Source: a virus. Taken from it: DNA of 27,071 bases. Within the stretch, counting starts at the first letter, position 1; every line of letters begins with the position of its first letter. This document shows, piece after piece, positions 4,094 to 26,803 of this stretch. The translations under genes and the position numbers were made by a program. The notes under the pieces are model-generated. The model worked only from the letters and a program-made list of their open reading frames with translations. It made no database searches and was not told the DNA's origin. The stretch lies in the IMG/VR virus record IMGVR_UViG_3300042154_000126, positions 1 through 27,071 of that record; one strand, 5' to 3'.

Positions 4094-4882
4094 TTAAGGA
4101 TAACTTTTAAATAGATTAGATCCTACACTAAATAACTCAACACGTGACGTACTATTGTTCTCTATTTCAAACTGCATATAGTAACCTAATGCTCCATATG
4201 ATTCAGCAATGCTATTTTTTATAAATAATATAAAATCAGTAACTAAAGGAATGTGTCCGTCAGTAACGGTTGTATCGATTGTTATAGTGTTTATTCCGTT
4301 AGTTCCAACTGGTATAGGACCAACTATAGGAACATACGATGTGTCTACTATTTTCCCTAGTTTTTGTAAGTTTCCATTATCATTCCTATAAGCTATATCT
4401 CCAACACTAACTATACTTGTAATAGTATATCCAAACGTAACCCTAACCGCTGCAGGTAATGTAGCGATAATTACAGAAGGCTTTCCAAGTCCTTGAGCAG
4501 AACGTAAATTCAAATCAACAGAATCGGCATTTCGTCTTATATACGCAAAGTAGTCTCCTTCTTTTAACACAAAATAATTGCTGTCTATAAAGCCAGTTGC
4601 CATATCTGTAGTTAATGTGCAGTACCAAGGAGCATCACTATTTAATGATATTGTCTTAAAGTTTTTAACGGTTGAAGACTCAGCATTAAACACAGACGTG
4701 ACCTTTGAATTATATTGTTGTCCATAAAATTCGTTTCTATTTTCATTTACATTATGACGATATAAGTTACCATCCTTAAATGTATAGAAATAAGAGTTCA
4801 TGCCAATCATTACCTCTGGTTTAAAAGAGAAAAATGATGTCCATCCTTTTGATGCTTCGCTAAATGATAGTGTATATTCCAT
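4094..4882 (-). CDS. Tail protein with GWTSF-type domain, 262 aa
   Basis: The N-terminal 75 residues follow a pattern I know from the end of large tail/stabilisation proteins of Bacteroidota and other podoviruses: YTLSFSEASKGWTSFFSFKP, then YFYTFKDGNLYRHN, then FYG, then VFNAESSTVKNFKTI. The remainder is beta-rich, with a Gly/Pro turn at GPIPVGTNG and a C-terminal LFSVGSNLFKSYP. There is no membrane segment or enzyme motif. It abuts the 130-residue gene (stop 4883, start 4882), which follows the 1494-residue nozzle-like protein. A structural role in the tail is likely. In relatives this domain may be fused to the large protein upstream, but here it is a separate gene. Confidence 0.6.
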   Translation of the reverse strand: MEYTLSFSEASKGWTSFFSFKPEVMIGMNSYFYTFKDGNLYRHNVNENRNEFYGQQYNSKVTSVFNAESSTVKNFKTISLNSDAPWYCTLTTDMATGFIDSNYFVLKEGDYFAYIRRNADSVDLNLRSAQGLGKPSVIIATLPAAVRVTFGYTITSIVSVGDIAYRNDNGNLQKLGKIVDTSYVPIVGPIPVGTNGINTITIDTTVTDGHIPLVTDFILFIKNSIAESYGALGYYMQFEIENNSTSRVELFSVGSNLFKSYP

Positions 4883-5275
4883 TTATGTACATGTTCCATT
4901 AATTGTTAACGTAAGCTCTGAACCAGTTAGTATAACACTGTCTGGTCTTGCACAAAATGTGCTTGCATCATAACCTCCAACTCCTCCTATTGTATCTTCT
5001 ACAAGAACATCAAAGCAGTCTATGTATGAATAATTTTGTCCAGATGATGAAGCGGTAGCTACTGTATAACTAACACAGTCTATTACAGGAGGAGGAGGAG
5101 GATATATTCCACATGTTATCTCTTCCAATAGTACTCCTAACGATTGCAGTCTATAAACACCATCAAACGAATAGTACCCGTCTGGCGCAATAATAGATAG
5201 GTTTACATCCATATATACAGCTGTTGCTGTGCTAAATGAACTTGAATTTATATAATATATTGTACTAACTGGCAT
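4883..5275 (-). CDS. Small tail-associated protein with four-cysteine module, 130 aa
   Basis: Residues 15-48 carry an STATAVYMDVNLS...APDGYYSFDGVYRLQSLG pattern seen in small Bacteroidota phage tail proteins. A five-proline linker (59-63) leads to a C-terminal module with cysteines at 67, 87, 108 and 129 in the order C-V-x-Y, Y-I-D-C, F-C and G-T-C. The same order and nearly the same spacing closes the 1494-residue protein encoded just upstream (C1435, C1455, C1473, C1492), so the two proteins share a domain. There is no signal peptide. The start at 5275 lies 25 bases after the upstream stop, in a very AT-rich gap without a Shine-Dalgarno sequence. The exact role is unknown; a tail accessory or tip protein is my inference. 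Confidence 0.65.
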   Translation of the reverse strand: MPVSTIYYINSSSFSTATAVYMDVNLSIIAPDGYYSFDGVYRLQSLGVLLEEITCGIYPPPPPVIDCVSYTVATASSSGQNYSYIDCFDVLVEDTIGGVGGYDASTFCARPDSVILTGSELTLTINGTCT

Positions 5276-5300
5276 ATTTTATTTTAATTTATATATTATT

Positions 5301-8300
5301 TTATACAGCGCAAGGACCTTCTTCTATGATTGTTATATCGTCAAAATTAGTTACTATTTCGTATCCACAAAATAAAACCGAAGTTTCTGCTGGAACTACT
5401 ATTGTATCTCTTATTCCACTACAGTTTATGTATGCTATTTCTGCAGTAGTTAATAGATTATTTATTGCTTGATATTCGACACACACAAAAGGAGCAGAAC
5501 AATCACAAGCAATCTCTGGACTAGTTTCGTCAAAACATAGTAATATTTCGTATGTTTTTCTGTAATCCCATACCAAATATAAATATCTTTTAAACGTAGG
5601 GTTGGTATAAGTAAATGATGATGAATACACTCCAGTATTTGGATTCAATATAGGAGTAGCTGTATTTAATAATGTAGACAATACTCCAATATCTGTATAT
5701 AAAGTATCTGATACTAAATATTTAAAGTTATTTGATAACTCATCAAAAACATATGTATCACCACTTAGTTTATTAGAGTTCATAGTTACAGTACTTCCAA
5801 ACGCTGGTAACGCACCACTTGATGCTGGTCCAGAATTTGCTTGATATAACGACACTCCGTCTTCTTCTAATGATATAAAATCAGTATTATAAGCACTAGA
5901 GTACGATCCAAGAGCCCATTTATAACTATTATGTATTAATTGACCCTCGTCTTGTGGAGAATTAAGTACTATTTTTATAACTTCTATCTCTTCAGTTACT
6001 GGACAAGAAAATGTAAGACCGTAAGACGCAGGAGTATATGTAAGCGTAACAGTTGCGTATGTAGGGTAATTAGACGTTTTAAGGAACGATAATGTACCTG
6101 TACCAGTTATAGCTTGATCAACTACAATAACATCTGCATAAGACACTTCTATTGTTATGTCGTCACCAATAGCTTCGTAATCTAGCGATACAGTTCCTAT
6201 TATTGGTTCTAGTTCAAGAGTAAATGTATAACTACCTACAACATCATCGAAATAAATAGTAGTTCCACATCCGTAGCTATCTAGCTCTCTAGGAAGTTCA
6301 GTATCTTTTAACGTTAGTACATACTCCTTTAAATAAGGATCGTAACCACCTAGCTTTTGCAAGTTAATTGATTCCTTAAAGTTATCTCTAAACCATCCAT
6401 TCATACCTAATTCAGATATAGCTGTCAAACTATCTGATTGAGCATCTCCACCTTTTAAGTTTATTACAGCAGTTCTCTTAGTGTCTGTGAAATAAATATC
6501 ACTTCCATAAACCGCAAAACTTTCAGGGTTATTACTTATTCCGTATTCTTCTATTCTAGCAATTTGCTTACCTAAAACCTCTGGGATAGAAGTAATAGCT
6601 CCACCGCCAGCAGAATCAGACAGCAAGTTCTTACCAACTAATACATAAGATATCTTATCTTCTTGAAGAACCAGCATGTCCGTTCTTCTACCGTAAAGTT
6701 TATTTATTGGTCCGAATGATTTTTCACAATCTTTCCAGTTAGCTAATGCAAGATTAAACTCGTTAGTTTTATTTATATTAGTTTCCTCATTGTATACACC
6801 ACTATAAGTAATTCCAGCATATCTATGAGCTTCCTTATAATCTTCTTGAGACACAGCCGTTACTCTGCTTCCTAAATAAAATGGATCTCCAACTAAAGAG
6901 TCGTTTATCTTATAGCTCTCAACTCCATTTCCAAAAGTAAAACAGTTGAAAAAGTTTAAATCTATGACAGCAGGAACTACTCCTAATTGATTAGTTACGT
7001 TTCCTTGATGATTTCCATTTATAATATCAAAGCTATCACTACCTTCAAAGTATATTTCTCCGTCAGCCTGTTCAGCTTCTGTTTCAAATATTATTAATGA
7101 TTCAGCTCTTTGTACGGTTATATCGCAAGATATTCTTGATTTAGGAGGTCCAGACCCTAAGAATGTTACACCATCACAATTTGGAGTTCCGCTAGCGCAA
7201 ACTAAAAATAATCTATCAGTTGCTACATCTATAAAAAACTGATATTGATTTTCATTTGGAATTATAGGTATTTCTGGATATACTCCAGTATATGTGCCTA
7301 ATGTAGTTATGAAATTATTAGTATTTACAGTGTCGTCACCACCACTAGTAATTCCAGCGGTAAGATCTATACCTTGTTCCGTTATAAAAGAATACATGTT
7401 GCTATAATCTTGAGACGCAACATATTGTTTTTCTAATAAATAATCCCTAGAACCACATCCTAATCCATCATATCTAAATACGTGTATATTAATTTTAATC
7501 AAACTACCAGCTGGAATATCATATATTTTATATGGTAAAGCACCTGGAGTTCCTGGATATAATTCATTAGGTATAAAACAATGGTATGCTATTTGACAAT
7601 AATTTGCTGCCGCAGATTTAACTCCTTCACTTATAAATGAATCTTTAGTGTATTCGGCAGAAAAATTAGAAGGTTTTAATTTCATATATAATCCTGCTGG
7701 TTCTAATATAGGATTTTCATTTTCATCAGTATTGTCGATTATAAAATCATCTGATTTAGATTCTAAAGCCAATACTTTAGCTTTAATCAACTGTTCTAAA
7801 ACTCCTCCAGAATCCGATTTTACAATTAACGTTTCATTGTCTCTTACCTTGTTTCTATTATCTCCTTCTAATTTAAACCACGTAAAACCAGTATCTTCTA
7901 TAAAATATTGATTTGTATAAATAGTTTCATATTTTGATTTAGAAGGCTTAACTACAAACTTATATTTAGTAGCCCAGTATGGAGCAATATTGTTTATAGT
8001 AGCTCTAATATAGTTTTTAGTATCTGAAGCTGAAGCTGGAATAAATACAGTATTTTCAGTATCTACTAAAGCAGTAGAACTTCTTCCATACTCATCCATA
8101 TAAACAATAGCAACCTCGTAATCTCTATTACTATGTAAACTTTTTTTAGATCCAAGTAGAGATATAGTAGCAGTAGTGATTGAATTTTTTAAGTATTCAT
8201 AAGCAAATACTCCTGGATTAGCATCGTCTTCAAATTTTATAGCTGGTATTTGTATGTTTAATATACTGTTATAAGGACTTGATGTTATTTCAAATTGTTG

Positions 8301-9785
8301 AATAGTATTGCTTATACCAGTTAACACTTTGGTCCATCCAGACTGTGCGTTTATTTCACAATTAAATAAATCAGTTATTGAATTTCCAGTACAAGAAGTA
8401 GCTAAAGAAAGGTGTGTCGATATAGCGTTTATAAACTCACTACTTGTAGCTAAATCATAAACAGTATCGTATGTATTTTGTATGTTAAATATAAAGCCAT
8501 TAATGAAGTTGTTTAATACTGTTGTGCCATAAGTAGGACTTCCTCCGAAAGAGTCGTGAACTAAATTAAAAGATATAGTAAGTATTGATCCTTGAGTTAA
8601 CGAAACTCCAGTTAAATCTATAGATATTGTTGATTCTGGTATAGTTGTAGATGTATCTATAGTATATGGAACACCGTCATTTAATTCTACTGGTAAAACA
8701 GAATAGCTTATGTCTTCGCTTATTACCTCTAAAGAATAGTTTAAATCTATACCAACTCCATTATCATCTACAATATCGTATCCATCTACATAGTTTCCAT
8801 ACATTAATCTATTGCCCATTACTGTTTGTGACTTAGCAATATGTGGCACATTGTCATAAAGTCTTAATAATTCGCTTTCAGTAAGTGTGGTATATATTTT
8901 TTTATTATTAAAAACAATAGTTTGATCGAAATTATTATACCACTGCTCTTCAGATTTATCATATTTTTCAATTACATTGATTATATTTGAATCTGACTCT
9001 TTAAAACATATGTCAATTCCTACTACATTTTTTCCTCCAGTATTAAATTTAACCTCAACAGAATTAAAAATATTCTGCATTCCTTTATTCCCATAGGTAG
9101 AATAATCAATATCAAAATTTCCAGGCTCAAATGCTATGTCGCTAAACTGAGACAATGCACTATATTCTCCGTCCTTATATTTATATCTATAAGCAAATGA
9201 TATGAACTTCTCTATGATATAATTCTCCTCTCCAGACACGTTTATTAACGTTATCTCTGGAGATGATAATGGAGGAGCCACTATTACGTTTAAATCCTCT
9301 GCAGTTATAATATCTACATCCATTACTGGATACGGATAGGATCTATCTATATTTATTTTTCGTGGAGGATTCAAGTTGTCCGTCCAAAATAAAAGATTAT
9401 CAATTAGGTTTATTCCGTTTATTAAATACTTTTCATCGAAGTTTAATACAGATGTAGAAATTACATGATATTGTAAACCATTAGTATTAGTACAATAAGA
9501 AACAATCATATCAACGGTTGGATGTGTTACAAACCAATAAATGGTTTCTTTGGATCCATCCTCAAAAGCTCCTATACATTTTGCACCAGTAAGTTCTACT
9601 CCGTTGTATTTTAATTCAGTAAGTCTTAAATTACCCTTTGCATTTTCTATTGCACCTATACTATTATTTTCTGTAGAACCGTTTCTAATATTTAATGCAT
9701 CGATATACTGACCTTGAGGAATCACTCGCTCATCAAAGTCTTTATTCATTTTACCAGCAATAAAGTTAACCTCTAAGTTTGCCAT
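5301..9785 (-). CDS. Large tail nozzle / stabilisation-type protein, 1494 aa
   Basis: This is the largest gene in the window. The N-terminus (residues 8-55) has FIAGKMNKDFDERVIPQGQY, then DALNIRNG and SIGAIENAKGN. This matches the general opening of podovirus nozzle proteins (P22 gp10 / T7 gp12 type), where a 'D..liP.GqY.dAlNv......G....e...GN' pattern begins the beta-rich body. The body is rich in beta strands, Asn, Thr and Ser, and includes an aromatic AYRYKYKDGEYSALSQFS segment. A beta-sandwich-like insertion (about 1200-1300) precedes a C-terminal four-cysteine module (C1435-C1492) shared with the next gene. It follows the two adaptor genes directly (two bases between), as expected for a tail assembly unit. 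I am fairly sure it is a tail protein and less sure which named protein it corresponds to. Confidence 0.7.
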   Translation of the reverse strand: MANLEVNFIAGKMNKDFDERVIPQGQYIDALNIRNGSTENNSIGAIENAKGNLRLTELKYNGVELTGAKCIGAFEDGSKETIYWFVTHPTVDMIVSYCTNTNGLQYHVISTSVLNFDEKYLINGINLIDNLLFWTDNLNPPRKINIDRSYPYPVMDVDIITAEDLNVIVAPPLSSPEITLINVSGEENYIIEKFISFAYRYKYKDGEYSALSQFSDIAFEPGNFDIDYSTYGNKGMQNIFNSVEVKFNTGGKNVVGIDICFKESDSNIINVIEKYDKSEEQWYNNFDQTIVFNNKKIYTTLTESELLRLYDNVPHIAKSQTVMGNRLMYGNYVDGYDIVDDNGVGIDLNYSLEVISEDISYSVLPVELNDGVPYTIDTSTTIPESTISIDLTGVSLTQGSILTISFNLVHDSFGGSPTYGTTVLNNFINGFIFNIQNTYDTVYDLATSSEFINAISTHLSLATSCTGNSITDLFNCEINAQSGWTKVLTGISNTIQQFEITSSPYNSILNIQIPAIKFEDDANPGVFAYEYLKNSITTATISLLGSKKSLHSNRDYEVAIVYMDEYGRSSTALVDTENTVFIPASASDTKNYIRATINNIAPYWATKYKFVVKPSKSKYETIYTNQYFIEDTGFTWFKLEGDNRNKVRDNETLIVKSDSGGVLEQLIKAKVLALESKSDDFIIDNTDENENPILEPAGLYMKLKPSNFSAEYTKDSFISEGVKSAAANYCQIAYHCFIPNELYPGTPGALPYKIYDIPAGSLIKINIHVFRYDGLGCGSRDYLLEKQYVASQDYSNMYSFITEQGIDLTAGITSGGDDTVNTNNFITTLGTYTGVYPEIPIIPNENQYQFFIDVATDRLFLVCASGTPNCDGVTFLGSGPPKSRISCDITVQRAESLIIFETEAEQADGEIYFEGSDSFDIINGNHQGNVTNQLGVVPAVIDLNFFNCFTFGNGVESYKINDSLVGDPFYLGSRVTAVSQEDYKEAHRYAGITYSGVYNEETNINKTNEFNLALANWKDCEKSFGPINKLYGRRTDMLVLQEDKISYVLVGKNLLSDSAGGGAITSIPEVLGKQIARIEEYGISNNPESFAVYGSDIYFTDTKRTAVINLKGGDAQSDSLTAISELGMNGWFRDNFKESINLQKLGGYDPYLKEYVLTLKDTELPRELDSYGCGTTIYFDDVVGSYTFTLELEPIIGTVSLDYEAIGDDITIEVSYADVIVVDQAITGTGTLSFLKTSNYPTYATVTLTYTPASYGLTFSCPVTEEIEVIKIVLNSPQDEGQLIHNSYKWALGSYSSAYNTDFISLEEDGVSLYQANSGPASSGALPAFGSTVTMNSNKLSGDTYVFDELSNNFKYLVSDTLYTDIGVLSTLLNTATPILNPNTGVYSSSFTYTNPTFKRYLYLVWDYRKTYEILLCFDETSPEIACDCSAPFVCVEYQAINNLLTTAEIAYINCSGIRDTIVVPAETSVLFCGYEIVTNFDDITIIEEGPCAV

Positions 9786-15001: not shown

Positions 15002-15025
15002 ATTATTATTATTATTATTATTATT
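15001..15025. repeat. ATT trinucleotide repeat forming seven in-frame TAA stops
   Basis: Positions 15001-15025 are a pure ATT/TTA trinucleotide repeat of about eight units. Read on the coding (minus) strand, the 223-residue gene ends in TTACAA and is followed by seven consecutive in-frame TAA codons (15023 down to 15003). The repeat then merges into the ATG of the 53-residue gene. It replaces the usual A-rich leader of that gene. Confidence 0.9.
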
Positions 15026-15692
15026 GTAACATTACCATTGGAACACTCCCATTACTTAAAAACAAAGATGTAGGATCTGTAGGAATTGGATCAGTATATA
15101 AATAACCAGTTGTAACAAGAACAGTATATGTATTATTAGCATTCGCAGCAATACCAATTGACATTAGATCTGAAGATACCGCACTTCTTATAGATTGTGT
15201 TGAATTTGAAATTATACCAATCCAATAGGTTGTACCAGCCTCAAATGTATATACTGTATTATATGTTTTTGTACCAAGTGTAGAACAATCAAGATCTACA
15301 GATTCAATTAATAATCCATCTGGTCTGCCATTTACATTGGCGTAAATTAATATCTTTGATAAAGCTGAAGCTACACCAGTGGCTACTTGAATTGAAAGAT
15401 TTGATATTGTTAAATTCTTAGCTGGTATAAAAGGTGATAATGCCATTAGGTTTGGTGATTGCCCAGTATTAGATGGATTAGTTCCAGTTAAAGCAACTGA
15501 ATATTTTAATCCTGGAGATAATACTTGATTAATAGGCATATTAAATCCAGATGATCCAGAAGGAACAGAATCAATTATATCCTCAATAGTAAATGGTTGG
15601 GTTTCAGAGTTTATTAACGCTGATTTCTTTTCTACTAAATTAACATTAGATGCTATTCCTATAAACCTAGTTCCTGATGGTACTGTACTCAT
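15021..15692 (-). CDS. Fibre-like protein sharing the tail fibre C-terminal domain, 223 aa (head fibre candidate)
   Basis: Residues 1-40 look like a short virion anchor: TRFIGIASN, then EKKSALINSETQPFTIEDI. The ending FTIEDI resembles the FTIESL of the 70-residue anchor protein. Residues 60-223 align with residues about 1035-1196 of the large fibre. The match keeps PAKNLT, KILIY, NG-P--LL, DL-CSTLG-KT and GTTYW; the distance from KI to YW is exactly 43 residues in both. It sits between portal and scaffold, where crAss-like phages can carry a head fibre gene. A surface fibre on capsid or tail that binds host or glycans is therefore the best guess. Its own TAACTTTG box lies 13 bases upstream of the ATG. 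Confidence 0.65.
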   Translation of the reverse strand: MSTVPSGTRFIGIASNVNLVEKKSALINSETQPFTIEDIIDSVPSGSSGFNMPINQVLSPGLKYSVALTGTNPSNTGQSPNLMALSPFIPAKNLTISNLSIQVATGVASALSKILIYANVNGRPDGLLIESVDLDCSTLGTKTYNTVYTFEAGTTYWIGIISNSTQSIRSAVSSDLMSIGIAANANNTYTVLVTTGYLYTDPIPTDPTSLFLSNGSVPMVMLQ

Positions 15693-21234: not shown

Positions 21235-21455
21235 TAGAAGTTTATATTGTATTCTATAGAAACAGGCATGTTATAGTTAAAACTCTTCCATAAGAATATT
21301 TCATTATCCTTTTCAATATATATATTAACCATGTCATCATTGTAATTGATATGATGAATAAAATATGTTTTATCCAATACAGGCTGTCCTACAAGAAAAT
21401 GCATAGCGTCGCTCTTGTAGTTAGCCCCTATAGATATTTTTCTAATATCAAACAA
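21234..21455 (-). CDS. Small hypothetical protein, 73 aa
   Basis: This 73-residue protein is mainly beta. It contains KSDAMHFLVGQPVLDKTYFI and ends with FLWKSFNYNMPVSIEYNINF. There is no signal peptide, membrane segment or catalytic motif. Its stop overlaps the ATG of the GroES-like gene (TAATG), and its start overlaps the preceding 70-residue gene by eight bases. It is therefore a real member of a tightly packed operon. I do not recognise the family; a small virion or assembly factor is possible. Confidence 0.6.
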   Translation of the reverse strand: MFDIRKISIGANYKSDAMHFLVGQPVLDKTYFIHHINYNDDMVNIYIEKDNEIFLWKSFNYNMPVSIEYNINF

Positions 21456-21660
21456 TTGATGTGATTAAGCCGTTAGTAACGGTAATTGTCTTGTCATCTT
21501 GAGATATGAATGTACCAGATACTCCAGTTTCAAGAGTTAACTCAATAAGACTTTCTATAGTGAAGTTTTTAGTCTCATTAGAAGTTTCTACATCTGTACC
21601 TATTAATAGGTCGTCTGTTGTTGGTACTGATATGTTTGGGTATTGACTAATTTTTGTCAT
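21448..21660 (-). CDS. Free-standing fibre anchor-like protein, 70 aa
   Basis: The first 40 residues match the N-terminus of the large fibre. Both begin MTKIS-x-Y, then have D-x-x-I-G-x-D, then N-x-TKNFT and a hydrophobic residue. In this protein the block reads DLLIGTDVETSNETKNFTIE. The rest (41-70) is a short beta segment ending ITVTNGLITSIV. It is thus a stand-alone copy of the part that probably fixes the fibre to the virion. It overlaps the genes on both sides (14 and 8 bases). Possible roles are a collar or plug subunit, or a competitor or placeholder at the fibre site. This is inference from the shared sequence only. Confidence 0.6.
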   Translation of the reverse strand: MTKISQYPNISVPTTDDLLIGTDVETSNETKNFTIESLIELTLETGVSGTFISQDDKTITVTNGLITSIV

Positions 21661-22395: not shown

Positions 22396-25300
22396 TTATG
22401 CTTTTGTTATTCCTATAAAAGGCATTGTTACTGTACTCCAAACCCCCGATGGAAATACTGATGGTGTTCCACTTGCAAAAGTAGAAATTGCTATATACGT
22501 GCCAACCGTTTGACCATTTGAAGCTAAATTTTTAAGAGGTAATAACGCTGATACTTGTACATTTGAAAATGCAGCCACTCCAGAATTAGTATGAACCACC
22601 ATCCAATATTTTGTACCGCTAATAAAATTAAATGTTACAGTTGCTGTTTTTTTGCCTATTGTAGATAAGTTTAAATCCGTACTTGTATAAAGTAAATTTT
22701 GGGGAACTCCGTTATTATCACTATAAATTGATATTTTAGCTAACGCGCCAGCAGCTAAAGTAGTTACATTAATAAATAAATTTAATGTTGTAATGTTTTG
22801 AGCTGGATAATAAAGTGTTGCTGTCATTCTATCTATCGTGTTTACAACAGATGTTAATGATACTGCGTTTACTGTAAAAGAAGTAACCTCGTTGCTTATT
22901 ATAGGTAAAATACTATGAACTCCAGACAAACCACCTCCGCCATTATATTGAGGTATATTCAATGTGCTACCTACTAAGGTAGCAGCTCCACTTGTGCCTG
23001 TTGTGGTTAATGTTATAGCGTCTTGTTTTGCATTCCAAGAAGTTGAGTTTCCTCCAGTTGCTGTTATAACTCCGTTAACGTCTAATTTAGTAGATGGACT
23101 TGTAGTTCCAATACCTACGTCTCCTTTTAAAGCAGTTTTAACTATTGAATCATTACCTAATACTACGGAATTTGAACCTAAACCTATTGCATTATATCCA
23201 ATAACAATTTGGTTTGTTTGACTATCTGCTAATGCTTTTGTTTCTGCCCCTAAATATATTGAGTTAGTTGAATTAATATTGGAAACAGAACCACCAGAAA
23301 TAAATCTTCCAGCTGCATTTCCTATTGCTGTATTAAAAGAGCCATTAATATTGTAGCCTGATAAATTTCCAAAGAAACTATTACCAGATGCAGAAATATT
23401 ACTATATCCGCTTCTATATCCAAAAAATGCGTTTTCATTTCCTAATGTGTTTACATATCCTGTATATGCTCCAAAAAATGAATTATTTAAACCTATTGTT
23501 GAAATAAGACCTGAATTATATCCTGCAAATGAATTATTAGGTGCGGTAGTATTAGATTGACCAGCACCGTTACCAATAAATAAGTTTCTAACTCCTGTGT
23601 TAATAGTATTGGAATTTCCAATCATTATATTTGATGCAATATTTCCTCCTCCTAATCCTATTTTTACTGAATTAATTAAAGCATCTCCGCCTACAATATC
23701 AAGTTTATAAGATGGATTTGTTGTTCCTATACCTACGTTTCCTCCTGAGGTAATACGCATACGTTCGGTTTGGCTTGTAAAAAATCTGTGTGTACCTGTA
23801 GAAATAGTTCCTGCCCAATACTGTATATCTGCTAGGTCTCCTAAGCCTAAACCATAAGTTTCCGTTGAAGATTTATAAAGATAGAATTTAAGTTTGTTAA
23901 AAGCATCTCCACCTGTTCTGTACGTATCATCTAATCTTATAGCTGTTGGTGTTGCAGCAGCTCCACTTAAACCACCAACTTGTAATATTTCACTCGGACT
24001 TGTTGTTCCAATACCCAATCTTTTATTACTGTCATCCCAAAAGAAATTAGCATTATCTTGGGCTATTGTTGTACCATTTGAAAATAAGACGGAACCAGCA
24101 GTTAATGATGGTAAATCAAATTTACTATTAAAAGTAGTCCAATCAGTTGAACTTAACGCTCCTCTATTTACTGACGATGCTGTTGGTAAATTAAATGTAT
24201 GTGTATCAACTAAACTATTAATATTAAAGTCTGTTCCGCTTGTTCCCACTGCTAAATATTGTGTATTTGCAGTCAATCCATTTAATGAAGTTACACCACC
24301 TGAAAATGTAGTTATAATTTCACATAAATGACTATTTTCTGTATGTAATGTTGCTGTTCTGCCTCCTGAATTATTAACGATATAAACCCTAATAGCAAGC
24401 CTATCTGTAACCAATAAAGGCGTTGTAGGTACCGCTAATGAAGTTAAATATAAATCAATACTTGTACCTCCGTTTATTGTTTCTGGAACTGCTGAATTGT
24501 TTGCAATAGTTGTAAAAGTTGCACCATCATATTTTAATAATTCAACATAAAAAGCAGGAGTACCTCCGTTTGAGGACATTGAAAAAAACATTTCAAAATT
24601 CCAAGCTCCACTGGGTATCTCTGTTCTATTTGGATTTCCAACATCAGTTAAAAACTGAGATATTAATCCATTTCCTGTTAATGTAAAATCCGTACCTGCA
24701 CCAATGATAGCTGTATTCGATAGTTGTTTATAAGTTGCTACCGATGCGTTAACACTTCCGTTTAAATAATAATTAACAGACGAGCCTCCCCCTCCACCAC
24801 TTGGCAAAGTTGCTAATTTACCATCCCCTCTAATATATTGAGCAGCTGTACCCGCTCCGCTAACAGTAATTGTCCCCGCCCCTGTAACTGGATTATTAGA
24901 TACAGTGAATGCAGGAGGCATTGATAAATCTACGGATGTAACAGTGCCAACACTCCATGTTCTATCTGCCGTAAGGTCGTACGCTGTTCCATTAATTGTT
25001 AATGTTCTACTTGTAGGAACATAGCCTGTTAAAGATGCGGATGTGATAAACCCATCTGGATTACTAGCTAAATAATAAGTATTAGTATCGTAAGATATTA
25101 CTCCAGCGTTTGATTTTACAAATCCAGTTCCTAGCAATGCGCTTTGCTTATTCATAAACGTTGTCCAATCCGATCCAGATAAATACCCGTTTATTCCATC
25201 ACTAGCTTTTGGAATTGATATGGCGTCAATAGTTCTAACTAAAGGAGAAGAAAAAGTCAATACATTCTCTTTTCCATTAAACGTATTCCAATCTGTAGAA

Positions 25301-25986
25301 CTTAAATAACCATCGGAACTTAATCCTGATTGATTAATTGTTATTGTCCCAGCGGTATCTACAAGCGGAGAAGTAAATATAAGAGCATTTGGTATGTCCT
25401 GAGCCGTTATAAACGGATAAATACCATCCTGACCATCATTTATAAGGTCAGATGTCTTTGTTGGTACAGCACCTTCATTTAAACTAACAAGAGATATCAT
25501 ATAATCCTTGTCCTCAAGCATCGATCCGTTCCCGTCAATATAATCAACGGTAAGTACAAAGAATGTAGGATCTAATATGTAGGGTTCTAGCGTAAGTATC
25601 TTATAAAAACCAAACTGATTGATATCATTTGATCTGTACAACAATACCTTCGATTCATTTAAGAAGTCAAGGAACTGACTTACATCGTTCTGTTTTGTTG
25701 TATACTTACTAAGCAAGAACGTTGTTATTGTAGAGAACGGAACCGAAGATCCTATCTCTGTCTCAAACGTTAATGTTCCAATAGGTCTAACCTCTAACGG
25801 GTCCAATGTGTAATACTTGTACTGTATAGGCATTCCTATATTTACAATTTGATTATCATTGAAGTATAACGCTAACTTGTCTGGCGTAAAGTTTTTAGTT
25901 CTGTTTTGATTTTGAATATCAGAACCAATCCATTTGTCACCACCAACTACGTCTTCATCTAAACTATATGTACTTATTTTTGTCAT
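22396..25986 (-). CDS. Modular tail fibre / receptor-binding protein, 1196 aa
   Basis: The modules in order are as follows. A virion anchor (1-45, MTKISTYS and KNFTPDKL) is shared with the 70-residue protein. A helical/beta neck covers about 50-200. Three spaced repeats of 'G-x-LS-x-x-DW-x-TF' lie at about 226-237, 267-278 and 610-621. A GTVTSVDLSMPP and GGGGG linker region lies at about 347-401, and a beta-rich jelly-roll-like domain at about 405-565. Three copies of GIGTT-x-PS (657-665, 752-760, 958-966) appear, with KLDI/KLDV after the last two. YadA-like head repeats such as NSFFG, GNENAFFGYRSG and NTAIGNAAG run about 790-945. The C-terminal domain (about 1030-1196) is shared with the 223-residue protein. 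Such repeats form trimeric beta structures. No S74 peptidase chaperone is visible at the end. The gene overlaps the spanin-like gene by ATGA. Confidence 0.82.
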   Translation of the reverse strand: MTKISTYSLDEDVVGGDKWIGSDIQNQNRTKNFTPDKLALYFNDNQIVNIGMPIQYKYYTLDPLEVRPIGTLTFETEIGSSVPFSTITTFLLSKYTTKQNDVSQFLDFLNESKVLLYRSNDINQFGFYKILTLEPYILDPTFFVLTVDYIDGNGSMLEDKDYMISLVSLNEGAVPTKTSDLINDGQDGIYPFITAQDIPNALIFTSPLVDTAGTITINQSGLSSDGYLSSTDWNTFNGKENVLTFSSPLVRTIDAISIPKASDGINGYLSGSDWTTFMNKQSALLGTGFVKSNAGVISYDTNTYYLASNPDGFITSASLTGYVPTSRTLTINGTAYDLTADRTWSVGTVTSVDLSMPPAFTVSNNPVTGAGTITVSGAGTAAQYIRGDGKLATLPSGGGGGSSVNYYLNGSVNASVATYKQLSNTAIIGAGTDFTLTGNGLISQFLTDVGNPNRTEIPSGAWNFEMFFSMSSNGGTPAFYVELLKYDGATFTTIANNSAVPETINGGTSIDLYLTSLAVPTTPLLVTDRLAIRVYIVNNSGGRTATLHTENSHLCEIITTFSGGVTSLNGLTANTQYLAVGTSGTDFNINSLVDTHTFNLPTASSVNRGALSSTDWTTFNSKFDLPSLTAGSVLFSNGTTIAQDNANFFWDDSNKRLGIGTTSPSEILQVGGLSGAAATPTAIRLDDTYRTGGDAFNKLKFYLYKSSTETYGLGLGDLADIQYWAGTISTGTHRFFTSQTERMRITSGGNVGIGTTNPSYKLDIVGGDALINSVKIGLGGGNIASNIMIGNSNTINTGVRNLFIGNGAGQSNTTAPNNSFAGYNSGLISTIGLNNSFFGAYTGYVNTLGNENAFFGYRSGYSNISASGNSFFGNLSGYNINGSFNTAIGNAAGRFISGGSVSNINSTNSIYLGAETKALADSQTNQIVIGYNAIGLGSNSVVLGNDSIVKTALKGDVGIGTTSPSTKLDVNGVITATGGNSTSWNAKQDAITLTTTGTSGAATLVGSTLNIPQYNGGGGLSGVHSILPIISNEVTSFTVNAVSLTSVVNTIDRMTATLYYPAQNITTLNLFINVTTLAAGALAKISIYSDNNGVPQNLLYTSTDLNLSTIGKKTATVTFNFISGTKYWMVVHTNSGVAAFSNVQVSALLPLKNLASNGQTVGTYIAISTFASGTPSVFPSGVWSTVTMPFIGITKA

Positions 25987-26393
25987 CTAAATTTATATAA
26001 TATATATCCTGGAATTAAAAGCAATAATAACCACCACCAATTAAACCCAGACTTTCGTTCTGTTTCTTTTTTAACGACAACTACTTTTTCGGTAACTTTT
26101 TTTGTGCTTAAATCAGACGTTATTTTATTTGAAACGATATTAGTATTGACTTTTCGTTTTTTGTAGCTTATTTTGGCGTTTATGTATGTTTTACCGTCTA
26201 TTACCATCGGCTTGACGGTGTCAATTGGCTCAATATATATCTCGCTAATACTATCTACTATTTTAATATCTATATTTTCTTTTGTCTGAATGTTATTTTG
26301 TATAACCTCAACCTTGTCTATCTTGACTTCTTCTTTTGCTACTTTACGTGTAGCGCAAGAAGTTAATAATAAGAGTACAAATAAATATTTCAT
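25983..26393 (-). CDS. Spanin-like lipoprotein with C-terminal membrane anchor (u-spanin candidate), 136 aa
   Basis: Residues 1-13 form a signal peptide with lipobox LLTSC (Cys13), so the mature N-terminus is probably attached to the outer membrane. Residues 14-115 are charged, rich in Lys, Val and Ile and probably extended or helical. Residues 118-133 (NWWWLLLLLIPGYILYK region) form a membrane segment followed by a short basic end. A lipoprotein signal plus C-terminal membrane anchor in about 130 residues is the build of unimolecular spanins such as T1 gp11, which join inner and outer membranes and fuse them at lysis. It directly follows an endolysin gene with ATGA overlap, which supports this. 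An unrelated envelope lipoprotein is the alternative. Confidence 0.6.
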   Translation of the reverse strand: MKYLFVLLLLTSCATRKVAKEEVKIDKVEVIQNNIQTKENIDIKIVDSISEIYIEPIDTVKPMVIDGKTYINAKISYKKRKVNTNIVSNKITSDLSTKKVTEKVVVVKKETERKSGFNWWWLLLLLIPGYILYKFR

Positions 26394-26803
26394 TTTATAT
26401 TCAGTATTTGTTTTCTATTCTTGCCTCCAGAAACATAAGACACATGAACCCAACTATAATTGTATTCGTTTATTAACTGGTCAAAGTCTAGGTTGTCTTT
26501 TATGTAATCAAAAATCATTTTGTTCGTAACCTTTCCTGTTCCTTGTATATCTATAGCCTGACCTTTAACATGCTGAGAAGTCTTAGAACCCCCAACAGAG
26601 TTGTTAAGTAGTAAACTTCTATAGAAACTCGACACCCTTAACGGAGTATCAAAGTGCTCTCTTACAACATCAAAAACTTTCGTGGCAACGAGCTGCATAT
26701 TTGCAAGCTCCTTATTACCTGGAGTATTTACTATACCCTTGCGTGTTGCTGTTTGGCTTGTAGTAGCTTCTAAGTAAGTTATATATTTTGATATATCTTT
26801 CAT
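26390..26803 (-). CDS. M15-type peptidase endolysin, 137 aa
   Basis: The protein cleaves peptide bonds in the peptidoglycan stem. Zinc site motifs of the M15 (VanY/Peptidase_M15_3 type) family are visible: S-x-F-Y-R-S at 58-63, SQHVKGQAIDI at 76-86 with ligands His78 and Asp85, and WVHVSY at 118-123 with His120. Glu113 or Asp108 may be the catalytic acid. The length of 137 residues is that of a single catalytic domain, without a wall-binding domain or signal peptide, so export depends on a holin. The gene overlaps both neighbours by ATGA, forming holin-like, endolysin and spanin-like genes in one translational chain. Confidence 0.82.
   Translation of the reverse strand: MKDISKYITYLEATTSQTATRKGIVNTPGNKELANMQLVATKVFDVVREHFDTPLRVSSFYRSLLLNNSVGGSKTSQHVKGQAIDIQGTGKVTNKMIFDYIKDNLDFDQLINEYNYSWVHVSYVSGGKNRKQILNIK

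Follow-up and report, generated by a model that had tools for sequence, protein, structure and literature searches.

A four-cysteine domain shared by the ends of a split crAss-type muzzle protein and its interposed neighbour

The window, that is, the whole stretch of DNA analysed here, comprises 27,071 bases and is identical with the whole virus record IMGVR_UViG_3300042154_000126. The two open reading frames described by the original prediction, of 1494 and 130 aa, are both present, and the four cysteines attributed to the end of each lie where they had been placed (residues 1435, 1455, 1473 and 1492 of the longer protein and 67, 87, 108 and 129 of the shorter one), in the claimed contexts CVxY, YI(N/D)C, FC and GxC and with the claimed first spacing of 20 in both copies. 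The remaining spacings are unlike, being 18/19 in the longer protein and 21/21 in the 130-aa protein. The accompanying remark that cysteines are otherwise rare does not hold for the 1494-aa protein, which has 22 of them, including 1417, 1427 and 1429 just upstream of the module; the 130-aa protein has the additional C55. A third gene, encoding 262 aa, has its ATG immediately behind the stop of the 130-aa gene and in frame with it. The features of the locus are listed in Table 1.

Table 1. Genes, domains and motifs at the muzzle locus of the window
Feature	Position	Strand	Basis
1494-aa muzzle (tail-tip) protein, body and C-terminal extension	5301..9785	-	PF25731, phrog_14478
Interposed protein of 130 aa, encoded between the muzzle body and the C-terminal part	4883..5275	-	Relatives in the same place
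262-aa protein, muzzle C-terminal domain as its own gene	4094..4882	-	PF25729
Muzzle C-terminal extension, approximately residues 1158-1494, a slot that varies between phages	5304..6314	-	Comparison with fused muzzles
Cysteine-rich lead-in LCFDETSPEIACDC (C1417, C1427, C1429) of the muzzle	5499..5540	-	Also in the muzzle ends of many relatives
Four-cysteine module, muzzle copy, residues 1435-1494	5304..5483	-	Profile match; AlphaFold model
N-terminal DGYYS module of the 130-aa protein, residues 1-55	5111..5275	-	Alignment, profile scan
Proline-rich linker GIYPPPPPVID of the 130-aa protein	5078..5110	-	Sequence reading
Four-cysteine module, 130-aa protein copy, residues 67-130	4886..5077	-	Profile match; modelled strands

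Profile matches identify the 1494-aa protein as a crAss muzzle (PF25731, crAss_MUZ, 42.6 bits against a Pfam gathering score of 27, E 3e-11; phrog_14478, E 4.9e-268) and the 262-aa gene as its separated C-terminal part (PF25729, crAss_MUZ_C, 54.8 bits against a cut-off of 27, E 1.4e-14), the PF25729 domain thus residing in a separate gene and not in the same chain as the PF25731 body. Both neighbours had been called tail proteins; this description suits the 1494-aa protein as the tail-tip muzzle, and the 130-aa protein is a putative component of the virion. The MUZ_C profile matches residues 1200-1290 of crAss001 gp44 (single-sequence E 3.7e-12), immediately behind YDKNNNDVYFTYKD, which in gp44 is joined without interruption to the C-terminal domain at residue 1200. 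Where gp44 has this short uninterrupted stretch, the window contains approximately 340 residues followed by a stop, the 130-aa gene and the start of the next gene; the extension begins right after the motif YDPYLKEYVLT, as judged by comparison with gp44 and the elemo phages, and the split maps to gp44 residues ~1198-1200. The muzzle chain is therefore split exactly where the module and the interposed gene sit, which shows that a break of the chain between YDPYLKEYVLT and the KGWTSFFSF domain is tolerated. In one relative (locus L083) the muzzle, the DGYYS module and the four-cysteine module are fused in a single 1907-aa ORF, so that the interposed protein can be regarded as able to continue the muzzle. 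Translational read-through as a conserved device was considered and set aside, because the gap between the stop of the 130-aa gene and the following ATG differs in relatives (L011 versus L010). The nearest named records found with the muzzle and MUZ_C searches were MW202828, the Pachyviridae phage phi46:3 and the elemo phages. No relative was found by PDB searches with the muzzle and MUZ_C profiles, and the muzzle-body profile did not recover gp44 from the PDB set.

The module is, as modelled, a small all-beta domain of about 60 residues. The AlphaFold model of the muzzle copy, based on 46 aligned sequences, reached a pLDDT of 93.6 and a pTM of 0.75 and contains six strands (residues 2-8, 14-19, 25-30, 34-40, 42-45 and 50-57). 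The model of the whole 130-aa protein (pLDDT 84.2) has a pTM of 0.45, and its domain arrangement is for this reason unreliable; strands were modelled in its C-terminal half at residues 68-74, 80-85, 91-96, 103-109 and 121-128. The original prediction would have had to be given up if the copies had no common fold, and the models predict the same run of beta-strands in both. Ten module members matched nothing in PHROGs and Pfam better than E 0.24 and 0.11, respectively, the module profile gave a best E of 0.89 against PDB sequences, and NCBIfam gave no module match for six proteins. Being absent from the Pfam, PHROG, NCBIfam and PDB sequences searched, the module is, on these comparisons, an undescribed domain. 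Matches to PDB structures were weak (Foldseek, best E 0.59; VIA, best Z 5.3 with an rmsd of 2.9 over 57 residues). A Pfam scan with E up to 1 returned PF25731 only for the 1494-aa protein and nothing for the 130-aa protein.

The claim that the same module closes both proteins is upheld by a profile built from 20 relatives, from which the window and its sister L002 were left out and which matches both copies with 25.5 bits each. Because the profile seed had been chosen by a regular expression for the cysteine pattern, shuffles with fixed cysteines served as a control, and the best of these scored 11.2 bits (996 of 1000 reported) and 15.2 bits (998 of 1000 reported). A global alignment score of 41 between the copies, which are approximately 21% identical, was matched by none of 2000 full shuffles and by 5 of 2000 shuffles with fixed cysteines. 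Both C-termini are thus copies of one undescribed, extracellular-type domain, which is real and shared. That the similarity might instead reflect convergence of two unrelated cysteine-containing beta tails draws on a pairwise BLASTP of the two copies alone, which is not significant (E 0.13), and on a profile of muzzle-only relatives, which matches them weakly (11.0 and 9.5 bits; E 0.022 and 0.061 for 1000 proteins). The held-out profile and the shuffle controls favour homology, and the strand order is the same in the two models; convergence is largely refuted by the held-out test and is hardly credible.

A common origin leaves the question of how the pair arose, for which a short duplication between adjacent genes had been proposed. 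A recent duplication, by which one gene end was copied into the adjacent gene in this phage or in its direct forebears, would fit the exchange between the two slots that operates in relatives, where the interposed protein of L003 shares 77% identity with a repeat in the muzzle of that phage (in L004 up to 69%) and the muzzle end of L022 is 75% identical to the interposed end of L015. In the window, however, the copies share only about one residue in five, and in a tree of 34 copies grouping follows the gene slot and not the phage (3 label changes compared with a mean of 13.4 after shuffling), the muzzle copy of the window pairing with that of L002 (support 99/99). As a recent event the duplication is therefore not supported and is very improbable. 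The tree is short, with many forks open, and the 130-aa copy stands on a long branch with its placement unresolved, so the pair may still derive from an old duplication.

Shared stretches were also observed elsewhere in the window. A 223-aa protein (15021-15692, minus strand) and the C-terminus of a 1196-aa fibre-like protein (22396-25986, minus strand) have 82 residues in common (45% identical, BLASTP E 2.5e-17), which constitute another module within this phage. A 70-aa protein (21448-21660, minus strand) resembles the first 38 residues of the same 1196-aa protein (45% identical, E 3e-6), perhaps as a shared attachment start. At 26390-26803 (minus strand) a peptidase M15 family protein (PF08291, E 6.7e-19), likely lysis-related by its family assignment, adjoins a short lipoprotein-like ORF.

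A search for the module in other phages, as had been suggested, located it at 21 loci among the best 80 of 536 confirmed matches of the MUZ_C alignment scan, a sample that leans to close relatives and in which several of the module-bearing contigs are near-identical. It occurs at the muzzle end, in the interposed protein or in both: 9 loci have it at both ends, 6 in the interposed protein only and 3 at the muzzle end only, one is the fused muzzle-plus-interposed ORF of L083, and in two (L074, L075) there are internal copies on either side of the split. The interposed proteins mostly start with the DGYYS module of 58 residues; some muzzles (L040, L042-L044 and others) end in it as well. When ORFs with the module at E below 1e-3 were collected from all loci, with redundant contigs included and L001 left out, 90 were obtained, comprising 33 muzzles, 26 proteins with DGYYS, 3 with MUZ_C and 28 others; the domain is not muzzle-specific, because these 28 of 90 were not recognised as muzzle parts. 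Against 50,697 phage records, tblastn of the muzzle end gave no match, and that of the 130-aa protein matched a single record, in its N-terminal half only. The interposed protein of MW202828 (L006:8001-8552), only the first 59 residues of which match the 130-aa protein of the window, is annotated as a 'putative glycosidase', a name that nothing here supports. A single-sequence module scan of viral contigs returned 13 pattern stretches, none confirmed, and a search with a four-part module pattern gave no matches.

The extension is a slot that takes interchangeable, mostly cysteine-rich modules. Its alternatives in relatives include TSP1 (L003), TSP1 with VWA (L016), VWA (L028), Fib_succ_major (L027) and a cadherin-like domain (phi46:3), with 11 TSP1 stretches in the extension of L003 (PF19028, E 4.7e-137); five of ten extensions in the Pfam scan had no match. 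TSP1 repeat arrays were seen in the muzzle extensions at L003:554-7969, where the repeats are interleaved with a domain also present in the adjacent protein, and at L004:1291-7974, and one stretch each in L015 and L016. Cysteines per 100 aa amount to 0.77 in the body, 2.69 in the extension, 3.88 in the interposed protein and 0.62 in MUZ_C, and their density is higher in the extension than in the body in all 46 phages compared, for which the p value of 3.5e-9 overstates independence, the 46 being related. For this comparison 85 loci were scanned. Loci were dropped when the muzzle chain was incomplete (14), the motif missing (7) or the locus a near-duplicate (18); L002-L005, which are copies of other loci, had been excluded from the outset.

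The module was also sought in host proteins with a profile (A5) that matched 8 of 8 phage records in a positive control, some of their modules being rows of the profile itself. Matches were obtained in 2 of 397 genomes of one bacterial family (that of G001), 4 of 301 of another (that of G002) and 2 of 391 of one class (that of G004), and 5 of these 8 look sound. Three (L168-L170) are short proteins that end in the module and have a leader that by eye resembles a signal peptide, while in L167 and L164 it ends, respectively, a long protein that has DUF5977 and a Big_9/cadherin protein. The partial match of L165, in an unrelated-looking protein, and the doubtful L171 and L172 were not counted as good. 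A larger search of one family, with a profile including host copies, returned 4 of 399 genomes, the same four as before, and a pattern search of bacterial genomes yielded 29 stretches, none with the module by profile. Given these low genome counts, host copies are rare. The genes of L168, L169 and L170, in three genomes of one bacterial family, adjoin a similar large membrane-protein-like gene. Copies on secreted proteins of the host would point to exchange between phage and host.

The original prediction left a choice between disulfides and metal binding, and of the two disulfides are favoured. The four conserved cysteines most likely pair up as two disulfide bonds after the virion has left the cell. 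Metal (zinc) binding, in a zinc-stabilised beta domain, could draw on the strand order, the topology of which would place all four cysteines near one sheet edge. The spacings of 20/18/19 and 20/21/21, however, contain no CxxC (or CxxH) metal knuckle, and Pfam reported no zinc finger. Additional cysteines tend to come two at a time: at model columns 7 and 13 both are present in 18 sequences and one alone in 2 and 3. The module occurs on secreted-looking host proteins, whose export would allow disulfides and thereby supports the same reading for the phage copies. Disulfides had been thought unusual for proteins assembled in a reducing cytoplasm, an argument weakened by those reported for the tail barrel and fibre hubs of crAss001 (PMC10172136). 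Loss of a single cysteine is tolerated, since the L083 module keeps C1, C2 and C4 and has lost C3; this counts against metal and is odd as well for two obligate disulfides. A cysteine-poor look-alike (interposed end of L015/L016, muzzle end of L022) with an apparent joint loss of C2 and C3 did not match significantly and was not used to infer pairing. Metal binding is highly unlikely on this evidence. The main rival to a contact function is a purely structural role, in which the module would be a disulfide-locked cap for the exposed ends of the split muzzle, clamping the interposed protein without a ligand of its own. In most muzzle and interposed proteins the module does lie at the very C-terminus, its site is where the chain of the muzzle is interrupted, and crAss001 tails are reported to use disulfides as staples (PMC10172136). 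Against such a cap, many relatives with a split muzzle have TSP1, VWA or other domains or no such module, and tandem copies of the module occur inside other long proteins; we regard this role as unlikely.

We consider it fairly probable that the module is a surface-exposed, disulfide-braced contact piece on the split muzzle of the tail tip and represents an undescribed extracellular-type domain. The crAss001 muzzle forms a hexamer at the tail tip that gates ejection and has been suggested to touch the cell surface, the suggested contact surface being the crass domain and the published IG2/crass span covering residues 318-1021 (PMC10172136); the docking idea for the muzzle is repeated in a review (PMC10136315). 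The interposed protein would ride on the split muzzle, and the two modules would be exposed around the hexameric tail tip, where they might touch the bacterial surface or help to select it. Swaps of modules would then change the contact properties and leave the gate-bearing muzzle body undisturbed. The slot may have a lateral position on the muzzle and not a terminal one, because the split at gp44 ~1198-1200 lies outside this IG2/crass span. A wider proposal, which we put forward tentatively and hold to be rather doubtful, is that a muzzle cut at one short loop carries an exchangeable tip, made up of the extension and a satellite protein, and that the tail tip is a modular adhesin platform borrowing from or imitating surface proteins of Bacteroidota. 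The satellite protein would consist of the DGYYS module, a linker and a variable domain, and the extension and satellite would be loaded with disulfide-braced modules, some of the same type as in secreted host proteins. A small domain that none of the libraries searched contains is described here as common to phage tail tips and secreted-looking host proteins, and its site in the muzzle, which acts as gatekeeper of crAss-like virions, is a clearly variable slot. Should this slot decide surface contact, the host range of environmental crAss-like relatives may be readable from a few interchangeable modules.

In the PMC full texts searched, nothing relevant was found on a described cysteine module or on TSP1 in such tails. 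The closest structural likenesses are two uncharacterised phage proteins in BFVD, A0A6J5NSF4 and A0A6J5M7Y7 (Foldseek TM 0.87 and 0.85 over 61-62 columns), which are 28% and 22% identical to the module with E values of only 5e-3 and 2.5e-2. The TSP1 repeats (PF19028/PF00090) in the muzzle extensions of L003 and L004 occupy the same slot in close relatives and are likewise small, cysteine-rich extracellular modules, but their motif and spacing differ, and TSP1 (PF00090/PF19028) is absent from the window proteins in the Pfam scan with E up to 1. Cellulophaga phage phi46:3 has a homologous muzzle and MUZ_C that are also split, with the cadherin-like domain in its extension, but lacks the interposed gene and the four-cysteine module. 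In the Flavobacterium elemo phages the homologous muzzle and MUZ_C form one ORF without an extension, with approximately 20 residues between the same two landmarks. The crAss001 gp44 (PF25731/PF25729; PMC10172136) has the same body and C-terminal families, the C-terminal part of the window aligning to its residues 1200-1290. In gp44 the two landmarks are contiguous, without an extension that could hold the module, whereas the window has a split chain, some 340 additional residues and the 130-aa gene as an extra gene in between.
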